In this document: positions 23,586 to 29,810 of the stretch, piece after piece | Layout: every line of letters begins with the position of its first letter | Numbering within the stretch: position 1 is the first letter of the stretch | Source: Thermicanus aegyptius DSM 12793 | GTDB lineage: Bacteria > Bacillota > Bacilli > Thermicanales > Thermicanaceae | Length of the DNA: 64,000 nucleotides | Direction: 5' to 3' | Assembly: GCF_000510645.1 (NCBI RefSeq) | Contig: NZ_KI783301.1 | Location: 3,115,788-3,179,787 of the forward strand | Program-made: the position numbers and the translations under genes | The notes under the pieces: generated by a model | What the model saw: only the letters and a program-made list of their open reading frames with translations | Databases searched by the model: none | What the model was told of the DNA's origin: nothing

Positions 23586-24338
23586 TTAATGAAAGGGAAC
23601 TGAAGATCGTAAAGACTCATTCAGAAGTTTTGAGATTTTCTCCACTTCATCCTGATCCGGGGGAACCGTATCTTTTAAAGAGTAAGGAATCCCCAGGGCT
23701 TCCCATTTATAGACCCCCAGCTTATGGTAGGGGAGCACCTCTACTTTCTCTACACTCGCAAGCTGGGCAAGAAATTGGGCCAGTCTCCCGATCTCCTCGG
23801 GATCGTCGGTCACGCCGGGAACCAGGACATGGCGTATCCACATCGGGATATTTCGCCGGGACAACAGTTTTGCAAAGGCGAGAATCCCCTTATTGTGATG
23901 GCCGGTCAGCCAATGATGTTTCGCAGCGTCTATCACCTTCAAGTCGAGGAGGACGAGATCTGTGACGGAGAGAAGCCGCTCCAGATCCGGGTCCTGCTTC
24001 TTCTCCGGCCGATAGCAAATACCGGAAGTATCGAGCGCGGTATGGATCCCCTTCTCCTTACAGCGGGAGAAAAGCTCCGACACAAAGGGGGTTTGAAGCA
24101 TCGGCTCGCCGCCGGTAGCCGTAACACCGCCGCCTGAGGCGCGCATGTAGGGAAGATAGCGTTCAATCTCCTCCATGAGGGAGTCTGCCGTGATCTCCTT
24201 TCCCGCCTTCACATCCCAGGTATCCGGGTTATGGCAATACCGGCAACGCATGGGACAACCTTGCATAAAGACCACATAGCGAAGGCCTGGACCATCTACG
24301 GTTCCACACGTCTCCACCGAATGGATCCTGCCGATCAT
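23586..24338 (-). CDS. pflA: Pyruvate formate-lyase activating enzyme (radical SAM)
   Basis: A 250-residue radical SAM activase that installs the glycyl radical on PflB. The 4Fe-4S cluster motif CPMRCRYC (CxxxCxxC) follows GTVDGPGLRYVVFMQG, as in all PflA proteins, and GGGVTATGGEPMLQ is the SAM-binding GGE segment. The second in-frame ATG (24338) is preferred because AAGGGGGG is 6 bases upstream; the ATG two codons earlier directly abuts the ribosome site. It is the last gene of adhE-pflB-pflA, 119 bp after pflB, followed by a strong terminator. Confidence 0.92.
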   Translation of the reverse strand: MIGRIHSVETCGTVDGPGLRYVVFMQGCPMRCRYCHNPDTWDVKAGKEITADSLMEEIERYLPYMRASGGGVTATGGEPMLQTPFVSELFSRCKEKGIHTALDTSGICYRPEKKQDPDLERLLSVTDLVLLDLKVIDAAKHHWLTGHHNKGILAFAKLLSRRNIPMWIRHVLVPGVTDDPEEIGRLAQFLAQLASVEKVEVLPYHKLGVYKWEALGIPYSLKDTVPPDQDEVEKISKLLNESLRSSVPFH

Positions 24339-24457
24339 CTTCATCCCCCCTTCTTCGCGCGTTCCATCTCATTCCATCCAGAAAACACCATGATCCAACG
24401 GAAACGTCCATCCCCACGGTTCCCTCTTCCTCTTCCCGACCAAGAAAAAATGGAACC

Positions 24458-26728
24458 TTACATGCTTTCATGGAATGTCCGGTGAATCACATCCATCTGT
24501 TGTTCCCGCGTTAACTTGATGAAATGAACGGCATACCCGGATACCCGAATGGTCAGTTGTGGATATTTCTCCGGATGATCCATGGCATCGAGGAGCGTCT
24601 CCCGGTTTAGTACATTGACATTCAGGTGATGGCCCCCCTTCATCGTATACCCGTCGAGAATGGCGGCCAGGTTCTTCCTCTGGGAGGCTTCATCGCGGCC
24701 TAATGCTTTCGGGACGATGGAGAAGGTATTTGAGATCCCATCTAAAGAATCCTGATAATCGATCTTGGCCACGGAATTGAGGGAGGCAATAGCCCCTTTC
24801 CGATCCCTGCCGTGAAGGGGATTTGCCCCGGGGGCAAACGGCTCTCCCGCTTTCCGGCCGTCGGGGGTATTCCCCGTCTTCTTCCCATAAACCACGTTGG
24901 AGGTGATGGTTAATACCGACTGGGTGGGATAGGAATTCCGGTAGGTTTTCTGTCGGCGAAGTTTCTCCATAAACCGATGGACCAGGTCGTGGGCGATTCG
25001 GTCCACGCGATCATCATCGTTCCCGTACTGCGGGTAATCGCCTTCCCGCTCAAAATCTACGGCCAAGCCGTTTTCATCCCGAATGACCCGGACACGGGTA
25101 TGCTTAATGGCGCTTAAAGAGTCCGCCACTACGGACAATCCGGCGATCCCGCACGCCATCGTGCGGAACACATCCCGGTCGTGGAGAGCCATCTCAATCC
25201 GCTCATAGGCATATTTGTCATGCATATAATGGATCACATTTAACGTATTGATATAAAGCTTTGCCAGCCAATCCAAAACTTTGTCGTACCGTTCCATCAC
25301 TTCTTCATACTCGAGAACTTCGGAAGTGATCGGCTCAAAACGGGGGCCCACCTGCACCTTCAGTTTTTCATCCACGCCTCCGTTAATGGCGTAGAGGAGC
25401 GCCTTGGCCAGATTTGCCCTTGCCCCGAAAAATTGCATCTGTTTGCCGATCCGCATGGCGGAAACGCAGCAGGCAATCCCGTAATCGTCGCCGTATTCCG
25501 CCCGCATCAGGTCGTCATTCTCATATTGGATGGAACTTGTCGCGATGGAGATCTTCGCGCAATACGCTTTAAACGTTTCCGGAAGCCGGGGCGACCAGAG
25601 AACGGTAAGGTTAGGTTCCGGTGCAGGGCCGAGATTGATCAGCGTATGGAGGAAGCGGAAGGAACTCTTCGTCACGAGGGGACGCCCGTCAAGCCCCATC
25701 CCGCCGATCGATTCCGTCACCCAGGTGGGATCACCGCTGAAGAGGGAATCATATTCGGGGGTGCGGAGGAACCTGACCATGCGGAGCTTCATCACAAAGT
25801 GATCGATCAATTCCTGGGCTTCCGCTTCGGTGAGCTTCCCTTCCCGCAGGTCCCTCTCCAGATAAATGTCCAGGAAGGTGGAAACCCGCCCTAAGCTCAT
25901 GGCCGCCCCGTTTTGCTCTTTTACCGCAGCCAGATAGGCGAAATAGAGCCACTGAACCGCTTCCCTCGCGTTTTCCGCCGGTCGGGAAATGTCATACCCA
26001 TACGAGAGAGCCATCTCCTTTAACTCATAAAGCGCCTTGATCTGTTCGGCAATCTCCTCCCGCAAACGGATCACATTTTCCATCATCTCTTCATTTTCCA
26101 AGGATGAGAGTTCCCTTTCTTTCTCCCGAATCAGGAAATCGACCCCATAGAGGGGAACCCTGCGATAATCCCCGATAATCCGGCCCCTGCCGTAGGCATC
26201 CGGAAGCCCGGTAATGATTCCGGCCTTCCGGGCCCGTTTCATTTCCGGCGTATAGGCGTCAAAAACCCCTTGATTATGCGTCTTCCGGTATTTGGTGAAG
26301 ATCTCCTTCACCTGGGGATCCAGTTCGTAGCCATAGGCTTCACAACCCTGTTCCACCATGCGGATCCCCCCATAAGGCATGATGGCCCGTTTTAGAGGTT
26401 GATCTGTTTGTAGCCCCACGATCTGTTCCAGTTCTTTATCGATGTATCCAGGTTTGTGAGATGTAATGGAGGAGGGGGTGTGGACATCTACATCTAAAAC
26501 CCCACCCTTTTCCCGCTCCTTGCGGAAAAGTTCCTTCACCTCATCCCACAGTTTAAGGGTCCTCTCCGTCGGTCCGGCTAGAAAGGAATCATCTCCGGTG
26601 TACGGGGTGTAGTTTCTTTGGATAAAATCCCTTACATCGATCTCTTCCATCCAGTTTCCGGCCCGAAATCCCCGCCATGCACCGCCATCCTCAATGATCG
26701 TCGGCCTTGATCCTTCTAAAATGGACAT
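24458..26728 (-). CDS. pflB: Formate C-acetyltransferase (pyruvate formate-lyase)
   Basis: A 756-residue glycyl-radical enzyme that converts pyruvate and CoA to acetyl-CoA and formate. The tandem catalytic cysteines are in [20 protein letters not shown] and the glycyl-radical loop is at the C-terminus ([20 protein letters not shown]). The length matches E. coli PflB (760). The start at 26728 (MSILEGSRP) has GGAGG 7 bases upstream; an upstream reading from 26794 lacks support and overlaps adhE. The gene is 52 bp downstream of adhE and shares its Rex-type control region. Confidence 0.94.
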
Positions 26729-26780
26729 GTTCATTCCTCCATTACTTACCAATGATGGGTAACATCGCTTCTCACTTCTT

Positions 26781-29387
26781 TTACCTTTGCACACCCTTAT
26801 ACGCCTGGCGGTAGATCTCCGCCAATTCGCTTACCAGCGGCATCTTGGGGTTGGCCGGTGTGCATTGATCCTCAAAGGCGAGATCGGCCAAGCGATCCAC
26901 CTTTGCCTCAAATTCCGCCGCATCAACCCCGCATTCTGCGATGCTTAAGGGCATATTCATCTCTTTCATCATCTCTACGATGGCTTTAATCAGGCTTTCT
27001 ACGCCCTCCTCCACCGTACCGGCGGGAAGCCCGACGGCCTTCGCAATTTCGGCGTACTTCTGATCCGCTTTGAAATATTCGTATTTGGGGAAAGCGGCGA
27101 ATTTGGTCGGCTTCTGGGCGTTATAGCGGATCACATGGGGAAGCAAGACCGCATTGGCCCGGCCATGGGGGATGTGGAATTCCGCCCCCAGTTTATGGGC
27201 TAAGCTGTGGTTAATCCCCAGGAAGGCGTTGGCGAAAGCCATCCCCGCGATGGTAGAAGCGTTATGCATCTTCTCCCGGGCCACTTCATCCTGTCCGTTG
27301 TGGTATGCCTTCGGCAGATATTCAAAGACCAATTGAATCGCCTTGATGGCAAGTCCATCGGTAAAGTCATTCGCCATGTTGGAAACATATGCCTCAATGG
27401 CGTGGGTAAGGACATCCATCCCCGTATCGGCGGTGAGGCTCTTCGGCAGCGTCATCACATATTCCGGATCGACGATCGCCACATCGGGCGTTAATTCATA
27501 GTCGGCCAGGGGATACTTCACATGAGTTTCTTTATCGGTAATGACGGAAAAAGAGGTAACTTCCGATCCGGTCCCGGAGGTGGTAGGAATGGCGACCAAC
27601 TGAGCCTTTTGGCCCAGCTTCGGAAATTTGTAGACCCGTTTGCGAATGTCCAGGAATTTCTGTTTTAAGCCGTTGAAATCTACCTCCGGGTATTCGTAAA
27701 AGAGCCACATGGATTTGGCCGCATCCATAGGGGAACCCCCACCTAAAGCGATGATGCAATCGGGCTGGAACTCGCGCATCCGCTCCGTCCCCCGCTTTAA
27801 CGTTTCCGTCGAGGGATCCGGTTCTACATCGGAAAAGATCTCCACCCGGACCATGTCGGGACGCTTACGCAGGTAGTAAAGAACCCGGTCCACATAACCG
27901 AAGCGAATCATATCCTTATCGGTGACGATAAAGACCCGGGAGATATTGGGCATCTTCTCCAGATATTTGGTCGCGCCCCGCTCGAAATAGATCTTGGGGG
28001 GAACTTTAAACCACTGCATATTAACCGTCCTCTTCGCCATCCGTTTTACGTTAATCAGGTTGATCGCGGAAACATTGGAGGTGGTGGAGTTGGAGCCGAA
28101 GGTTCCGCATCCCAGGGTCAGAGAGGGCATATAAGCGTTATAAATATCTCCAATGGCGCCTTGGGAGGATGGGGCATTTACAATAATCCGTCCCGTCTTC
28201 ACCCTTCGTCCGAACTCTTCAATCACTTGATCATTGCTGGAATGGATGACGGCGGAGTGACCCATCCCTCCGAATTCCACCATCTCTTCCGCCCTCTTGA
28301 TTCCTTCTTCCGTGCTGTTTACTTTAAAGAAGGCGAGCACCGGGCTTAATTTCTCCCTGGAGAGGGGGTATTCGGGACCGACACCGCCGATCTCCGCCAC
28401 CAGAATTTTCGTGGCGGGAGGCACCTCTACGCCGGCCATCTCCGCGATCTTTGCAGCCGGCATCCCCACCACTTTGCTGTTGATGGCTCCTGTTTCAGGA
28501 TGAATCACCAGCGATTCCACTTTCTTTATTTCCGACTTGTTCAGGAAGTAACAATGATTCTCCCTCATATAATCCTTTACTTCCTGATAAATCTCTTTAT
28601 CGACGATCACCGCTTGTTCGGATGCGCAAATCATGCCGTTATCGAACGTTTTGGAGAGGATCAGGTCGGTAACCGCCCTCCGTATATTGGCCGTCTTCTC
28701 GATGTAGCAGGGGACATTTCCCGGTCCGACCCCTAACGCAGGTTTTCCGGTGCTATAGGCCGCTTTTACCATGGCGGAACCACCTGTAGCGAGGACCAAT
28801 GCCACTCCTTTATGATTCATCAGCGCCTGGGTCGCTTCGATGGAAGGTGTCTCGATCCATTGAATGCAGTTTTCCGGGGCTCCCGCCCTGATCGCCGCAT
28901 CTCGGACCGTCTTGGCCGCCTCTGCGCTGCAGAGCTGCGCCGAAGGGTGGAAGGCAAAGATGATGGGGTTTCGCGTCTTCATGGCGATGAGAGACTTAAA
29001 CATCGTGGTGGATGTGGGATTGGTTACGGGGGTTACACCGGCAATCACCCCGACCGGTTCCGCGATTTCCACAATCCCCTCATATGGATTCTCACGGATC
29101 ACTCCAACGGTCTTATCATACTTGATGTTGTGGTAAATATATTCGGTGGCGAAGATATTCTTAATGATCTTATCTTCATAGACCCCTCGTCCGGTCTCCT
29201 CCACGGCGAGGCGGGCCAGTTCCATGTGGCGGCTTAGCCCGGCAATCGCCATCTCTTTAACGATCCGATCGATCTCTTCCTGATCCAACTTCATAAATTC
29301 CTCCAAGGCTTGGTGAGCCTTCGCCACCAATTGGTCAATCATCTCCGCAACATTTGGCTTGCCGGTTTCTCTCTCGACGACTGCCAT
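26781..29387 (-). CDS. adhE: Bifunctional acetaldehyde-CoA/alcohol dehydrogenase
   Basis: An 868-residue two-domain enzyme that reduces acetyl-CoA to ethanol and reoxidises two NADH. The N-terminal aldehyde dehydrogenase (1 to about 440) has [20 protein letters not shown] and the catalytic Cys in [13 protein letters not shown]. The C-terminal iron-dependent alcohol dehydrogenase (about 450-868) has [29 protein letters not shown] and the metal ligands in [20 protein letters not shown]. The ATG is preceded by AAAGGAG. Three palindromes of Rex type lie upstream, consistent with induction when NADH is high (low oxygen). Confidence 0.95.
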
Positions 29388-29446
29388 CGCAATGATCTCC
29401 TTTCCGATTCTTTTTGGCTTCCCTCCGGATGTACTTCTCCCTTAAT

Positions 29447-29464
29447 TTGTGAATTAATTCACAT
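29447..29464 (-). promoter_or_regulatory. Rex-type operator 1 (adhE leader)
   Basis: TTGTGAATTAATTCACAT; its inner 16 bases are a perfect palindrome (TGTGAA-TTAA-TTCACA). Matches the Rex consensus TTGTGAAn4TTCACAA at all but the last base. About 60 bp upstream of the adhE start. Confidence 0.8.
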
Positions 29465-29516
29465 ATAAAGGTAAAAAATCACGGGGCCGTAACAAAATCT
29501 CCTCGCAGCCTCTGTA

Positions 29517-29534
29517 TTGTGAATTTATTCACAT
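29517..29534 (-). promoter_or_regulatory. Rex-type operator 2 (adhE leader)
   Basis: TTGTGAATTTATTCACAT, differing from operator 1 at a single central base and centred 70 bp away from it. Both sit between the predicted promoter and adhE. Confidence 0.8.
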
Positions 29535-29648
29535 ATACACCCGCGCTTCCCCGAAAAAAGTATGGTTTCTCCTGTACCTCAACAGACCATTTCCCTCTCC
29601 GAACGGATGCAACCTTCAGCTTTCTTCTATTTTTCTTGGTACGTTTAT

Positions 29649-29677
29649 AGCATATTCGATTCTCCTCGCTTCGTCAA
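29649..29677 (-). promoter_or_regulatory. Candidate SigA promoter of adhE-pflB-pflA
   Basis: On the minus strand TTGACG (29677-29672) and TATGCT (29654-29649) are spaced by 17 bp. The transcript would have a leader of about 255 bases that includes Rex-type operators 1 and 2, while operator 3 abuts the -35 box. Confidence 0.5.
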
Positions 29678-29682
29678 TCTAG

Positions 29683-29700
29683 TTGTGATGGATTTCACAA
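29683..29700 (-). promoter_or_regulatory. Rex-type operator 3 (at the -35 of the adhE promoter)
   Basis: TTGTGATGGATTTCACAA has perfect outer arms TTGTGA/TCACAA around six bases. It lies 5 bp upstream of the predicted -35 hexamer, where a bound repressor would block polymerase. Confidence 0.75.
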
Positions 29701-29781
29701 AGTATACAAGATGAAAGCGCAAACAGTTAGGCGATCGCCTCTGTAAGAAGGGGATTGCCAGTAGGCCATTAGAAGATTCGA

Positions 29782-29810
29782 AAGACCCAGGCCTACTTGG
29801 CTTGGGTCTT
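29782..29810 (-). terminator. Hairpin at the end of the substrate-binding protein gene
   Basis: AAGACCCA and TGGGTCTT arms, extended by GCC/GGC, surround the stop codon of the lipoprotein gene. The minus-strand tail TTTCGAATCTTCT is only moderately T-rich, so termination may be partial. Confidence 0.55.

Follow-up and report, generated by a model that had tools for sequence, protein, structure and literature searches.

Three near-consensus palindromes before adhE-pflB-pflA of Thermicanus aegyptius are probable Rex operators

The fermentation operon adhE-pflB-pflA of Thermicanus aegyptius, a facultative anaerobe with 50.3% G+C (PMC9237643), is preceded by three palindromes which, judging from their sequence, are likely to be the operators through which the single Rex protein of this genome would repress the operon. 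The palindromes lie within the window, i.e. the whole stretch of 64,000 nucleotides that was analysed (49.5% G+C), and their clustering before adhE is real, non-random and far beyond chance. We assign the pair nearer adhE to Rex with good confidence on the strength of its motif, and the remaining palindrome is probably a Rex operator too, although a weaker one.

The first gene of the operon, adhE (26781..29387, minus strand), encodes a bifunctional acetaldehyde-CoA/alcohol dehydrogenase of 868 aa, and is accompanied on the same strand by pflB (24458..26794, ORF as called; formate C-acetyltransferase) and pflA (23586..24344; pyruvate formate-lyase activating enzyme), all three scoring over their NCBIfam cut-offs and presumably forming one transcript. 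As called, the pflB ORF opens with a GTG at 26794 and overlaps adhE by 14 bp; the pflB family profile match begins at residue 39 of this ORF (region 26681-26794), and the true pflB start probably lies further in than the called GTG.

Because these genes are on the minus strand, site 3 (TTGTGAAATCCATCACAA, minus strand, 29683..29700), which combines hybrid half-sites, is the upstream palindrome, and the Rex-type sites 2 (ATGTGAATAAATTCACAA, minus strand, 29517..29534) and 1 (ATGTGAATTAATTCACAA, minus strand, 29447..29464) fall in the predicted leader, nearer adhE. Read on the plus strand they are TTGTGATGGATTTCACAA at 29683, TTGTGAATTTATTCACAT at 29517 and TTGTGAATTAATTCACAT at 29447. The order along transcription is therefore site 3, predicted promoter, site 2, site 1 and the adhE start at 29387. 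The predicted promoter, TTGACG-17-TATGCT (29649..29677, minus strand), matches the consensus at 9 of 12 bases and would give a leader of ~255 nt; it was the 1 candidate of a scan in which shuffles gave 0.8 on average, and it has to be taken as a fitting guess and not as a result. An extended -10 element, TGC-TATAAA (29644-29652, minus strand), overlaps its end, and a weak alternative -10, TATACT (29701..29706, minus strand), which has a poor -35, touches the upstream side of site 3. Site 3 had been described in the initial annotation as abutting the predicted -35 box, from which it is in fact separated by 5 bases (29678-29682). The same annotation regarded a promoter downstream of all three sites as fatal to its reading; no 9/12 match was found between or below the leader sites, the upstream promoter being itself at chance level. 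A structured RNA was also looked for in the leader, but no part of the window scored up to the cut-off of an Rfam family.

The three palindromes are TTGTGA-N6-TCACAA inverted repeats with 0 or 1 mismatch each, they span exactly 254 bp at the positions originally given, and the two leader sites do differ by the single base claimed. At this stringency they are the sole matches in the 64-kb window, whereas 300 dinucleotide shuffles of the window gave a mean of 0.1 matches and at most 2, with two matches within 254 bp in none of the 300; shuffling the region 29388-29792 alone 2000 times gave a mean of 0.001. Only the tight criterion is telling, since with up to 2 mismatches the window holds 5 matches against 2.14 expected. 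Compared with the Rex consensus TTGTGAA-N4-TTCACAA (14 bases), each site carries exactly one mismatch: at position 1 in sites 1 and 2, whose spacers are A/T-rich, and at position 7 of one half in site 3, which has two G/C in its central spacer and one Crp/Fnr-like half (ATCACAA). A perfect 12-bp palindrome, AGGCGATCGCCT, present as a single copy in the window, is located upstream of site 3 at 29729-29740.

Over the entire genome (G000, 3.66 Mb, one contig) the 12-base pattern with no more than 1 mismatch occurs at 20 places including sites 1-3, against 0 for the reversed pattern; several of these places lie within ORFs that were called mechanically. When as many as 3 mismatches of 14 are allowed, the reversed pattern yields 127 matches versus 192 for the true one, so that most of the weak genomic sites are at chance level. 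Some of the sites elsewhere are nonetheless recorded here. A perfect TTGTGA-N6-TCACAA at L105:5114-5131, 21 bp before an ORF for a hydrogenase small subunit, is a possible Rex or Crp target; two one-mismatch sites 154 bp apart (L112:6533 and 6687) are found at a SleB-like gene, which one would hardly expect a redox regulator to control; and three sites at L151:6317, 6387 and 6560, 70 and 173 bp apart, nearly reproduce the spacing of the adhE set, these being degenerate (2-3 mismatches of 14) and placed between genes for an MFS transporter and an S9 peptidase.

The adhE upstream regions of relatives were collected by an AdhE scan of genome contigs, from which the best 80 of 301 confirmed loci, mostly of Paenibacillus and Cohnella, were taken with the adhE start placed from the alignment; many are close kin, and the counts across them are therefore not independent. 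The 61 genomes compared include no other member of the Thermicanus family and five of its order. In the stored adhE flank (up to 3 kb), pflB is present at 61 of the 80 loci, downstream and on the same strand in 55. Of the 81 regions, among them the window, 30 carry a Rex-type site (no more than 1 mismatch of 14) in the 400 bp preceding adhE, where shuffled sequence gave 0.0; two regions hold at least two such sites, and three occur in the window alone. Relaxing the threshold to 3 mismatches of 14 over the same 400 bp gave a site in 45/81 regions (3.4 expected) and none in the other 36, which include those of L028 and L031, closely related MAGs whose AdhE is 79% identical. At four Anoxybacillus loci (L026, L027, L029, L030) adhE is preceded by a perfect site at -29.5 and, farther out at -132.5, by a half-degenerate one with 2-3 mismatches. 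Both Neobacillus loci (L032, L033) resemble the window in having one farther upstream site and two nearer adhE, but their far site is degenerate in one half and the spacings are 124/58 bp (L032) and 108/59 bp (L033) versus 166/70 bp in the window. The far-plus-near layout is thus not peculiar to the window, whereas three sites within 1 mismatch are (1/81).

The same regions contain a second class of look-alike palindromes. A search of the 80 relatives for the Crp/Fnr type, TGTGAY-N4-RTCACA, with at most 1 mismatch and within 600 bp before adhE, retrieved 23 sites, and in 16 of them a -10-like hexamer follows the 18-mer at exactly 20 bp; at the other spacings from 3 to 60 the mean was 0.70 hexamers and the largest count 4. 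Such a distance to the -10 box puts the palindrome where a class II activator sits, centred at -41.5. None of the 30 Rex-type sites of the relatives has a -10-like hexamer at exactly 20 bp. Since this spacing separates the two classes, Crp/Fnr-type activator sites and Rex operators are both to be found in these adhE regions, at some loci near each other. As an observation in its own right, the 16/23 proportion suggests that in Paenibacillaceae and Caldalkalibacillus (L025-L104) an Fnr-type protein activates adhE directly in the class II manner.

On the two profiles, which partly argue in a circle because their sites were picked by pattern (a reservation that does not extend to the spacing test), the Rex score exceeds the Crp/Fnr score for site 1 (27.5 vs 20.7 bits), site 2 (26.4 vs 19.5) and site 3 (20.1 vs 16.9). 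In leave-one-out scoring the Rex sites of the relatives range from 22.2 to 29.9 bits, with sites 1 and 2 inside this range and site 3 below it; the Rex profile gives class II sites as much as 21.9 bits, a reach that includes site 3, and all three sites are inside the Crp/Fnr profile range of 14.2-23.1. The profiles overlap, so for site 3 the score alone is indecisive and the argument is carried by the spacing test: at 19-22 bp after site 3 the best hexamer matches the -10 box at 2 of 6 positions, which is not the class II arrangement.

A single match to the Rex DNA-binding family was retrieved from the genome. The protein scores 289 on NCBIfam NF003995, whose cut-off is 126, and passes the cut-offs of several further Rex models; among solved structures it is nearest to Rex proteins, that of B. 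subtilis (2vt2) included (E 1.1e-48). Nine genome matches were obtained for HTH_Crp_2, two of them (L002, L003) over the Pfam cut-off. The L002 protein has no cysteine and, by eye, a CRP-like recognition helix, RETMSR; the helix of L003 differs from it, also by eye, and inspection of these two above-cut-off proteins disclosed no C-terminal Cys cluster. As query for an Fnr we used the Fnr-like protein preceding adhE in L050, presumed to be an Fnr from the C-terminal cysteines read in its sequence. Its best match in the genome is 24% identical over residues 28-229 of 255, and no clear Fe-S Fnr is apparent there. In a set of 34 genomes, hand-picked from the 80 relatives and with G000 included, the best match was at least 36% identical in 29, but 24-28% in G000 and the genomes of L028 and L031, and at E 1e-15 none was found in the genomes of L029 and L035. 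A Crp/Fnr-type site at class II spacing before adhE occurs in 0 of these 5 genomes versus 12 of the other 29, which fits a co-occurrence of Fnr-like protein and class II site, the numbers being small and the set picked. The genome further encodes CcpA, over its cut-off, and a ResB-CcsB-response regulator-kinase cluster.

Schau and colleagues are reported to have described in 2004 a Rex (YdiH) region at B. subtilis cydABCD, another operon than adhE-pflB-pflA, with several operators, some of them downstream of the start. In S. aureus, Rex binds TTGTGAAW4TTCACAA before adhE, pflB and ldh1, binding being favoured by NAD+ and weakened by NADH, and affinity being lowered by mismatches at positions 1 and 7 and by G/C in the spacer (PMC2883068). 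The 18-bp motif and the target genes are those of the window; the S. aureus sites lie in the promoter or a few bases off, with two sites at ldh1 (PMC2883068). The window differs in having three sites, two of them far into the predicted leader. The affinity rules make site 3, which the initial annotation had put forward as perfect, probably the weakest of the three Rex sites. In Thermoanaerobacterium saccharolyticum, with two predicted Rex sites before adhE (-150 and -31), deletion of rex raised adhE expression ten- to twelve-fold, and the authors propose site number as a possible reason why adhE was affected more than adhA (PMC5886521). That system differs from ours in its motif, TTGTTA-N6-TAAC, and in having two sites instead of three. 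Against Rex control of fermentation genes here count the protein levels in a B. cereus rex mutant, since during anaerobic fermentation PflB, alcohol dehydrogenase and lactate dehydrogenase were not significantly different from the wild type, and PflA was down, not up (PMC4162614).

In the reading that we consider likely, at a low NADH/NAD+ ratio Rex would sit on the sites and keep adhE-pflB-pflA off, and a rise in NADH would release Rex and allow the ethanol/formate pathway to be made. At site 3, whose centre falls at about -50 relative to the predicted start, it would impede the binding of RNA polymerase; at sites 2 and 1 (about +117 and +187) it would be a roadblock to leader transcription. 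Rex binding, the start point, the roadblock step and any joint effect of the sites we infer rather than observe. The Rex-type control originally proposed is well supported by sequence at leader sites 1 and 2, and for site 3 Rex is the better reading even if its score is the lowest. On the other hand, the tight, cooperative repression and the DNA looping that had been attached to it are unsupported. The centres of the sites are 166, 70 and 236 bp apart, or 15.8, 6.7 and 22.5 turns at 10.5 bp per turn. From the far site to the first nearer one, a similar remainder of turns recurs in L032 (124 bp or 11.8 turns) and at the four Anoxybacillus loci (103 bp or 9.8 turns), L033 being the exception with 108 bp or 10.3 turns; as these remainders vary among relatives, looping is neither supported nor refuted by them. 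The literature retrieved for Rex together with looping concerned only the RexA of lambda, which is unrelated.

Other proteins could bind the same palindromes. Site 3 could be the site of a Crp/Fnr-family activator, for instance the CRP-like L002, leaving sites 1 and 2 alone to Rex. An activator upstream with Rex downstream is indeed the layout of some Paenibacillaceae (L053, L061, L063, L090 and L093, with a Crp/Fnr-type site upstream and a Rex site nearer adhE), and both the ATCACAA half of site 3 and the CRP-like helix of L002 would agree with it. A weak further point is the operon of L002 itself, in which a Crp-type site (L119:11423-11440) precedes a radical SAM gene and then L002, with TAAGAT (4/6) 20 bp downstream; autoregulation of L002 through this site is possible, though only a lead, because hexamers of that grade stand at 20 bp in 5 of 42 site orientations (3 at 19 bp, 2 at 21 bp). 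We nevertheless consider such an activator at site 3 unlikely, given the 2/6 hexamer where 16/23 Crp/Fnr-type sites have theirs at exactly 20 bp, the Rex profile score 3.2 bits above the Crp/Fnr one and the want of a clear Fe-S Fnr (24% identity at best). The Crp/Fnr-like ArcR of S. aureus bound such motifs in vitro, but transcription of the tested genes was not significantly changed (PMC2883068).

ResD, phosphorylated at low oxygen, has also to be considered as the main binder, activating through the half-site TTTGTGAAT. One exact copy (from 29446) and four one-mismatch copies are present in 29388-29800, at the palindromes, each starting one base outside the palindrome and otherwise within it; owing to this overlap ResD and Rex are not separable by sequence here. 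The ResB-CcsB-response regulator-kinase cluster and the B. cereus ldhA promoter, where a Rex motif overlaps ResD and Fnr motifs (PMC4162614), would be in keeping with this role. A lone half-site, however, needs neither the near-perfect inverted repetition of sites 1-3 nor their fixed 6-base spacer, and sites 1 and 2, far downstream of the predicted start, would be poorly placed for an activator, which makes ResD as main binder very unlikely in our view. As for chance or non-functional repeats, the similar sites inside called ORFs could be read that way, but the shuffles, and the fact that relatives too carry the motif ahead of adhE, leave this explanation with hardly any credit.

With Rex retained as the preferred binder of the three palindromes, it is probably not the sole input to the operon, because a cre adjoins the sites and the ResD-like half-sites overlap them; both elements had escaped the initial annotation. 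The cre, ATGAAAGCGCAAACA (29711..29725, plus strand), 10 bp upstream of site 3, is an exact match to the consensus WTGNAANCGNWNNCW. Exact cre matches occur in 7 of 81 adhE regions versus 1.1 expected, one-mismatch matches being uninformative (23 vs 19.7). CcpA at this neighbouring cre is, from the sequence, a likely second input.

Rex control of adhE is already established, and the window adds a conventional case, unusual in its richness: none of the 80 relatives compared has as many near-consensus Rex sites before adhE. The 20-bp spacing to the -10 box offers a simple sequence test to tell Rex operators from look-alike Crp/Fnr activator sites. The case could be of help in selecting operators for thermophilic ethanol production. 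It is tempting to speculate, although we hold it to be quite improbable, that a lineage without an Fe-S Fnr has swapped an oxygen-sensing activator at its main fermentation operon for stacked Rex repression, with one operator at the promoter and two consensus-like roadblocks in the leader. If true, the NADH/NAD+ ratio, together with sugar through CcpA, and not oxygen, would set the ethanol/formate output of this bacterium in steps.
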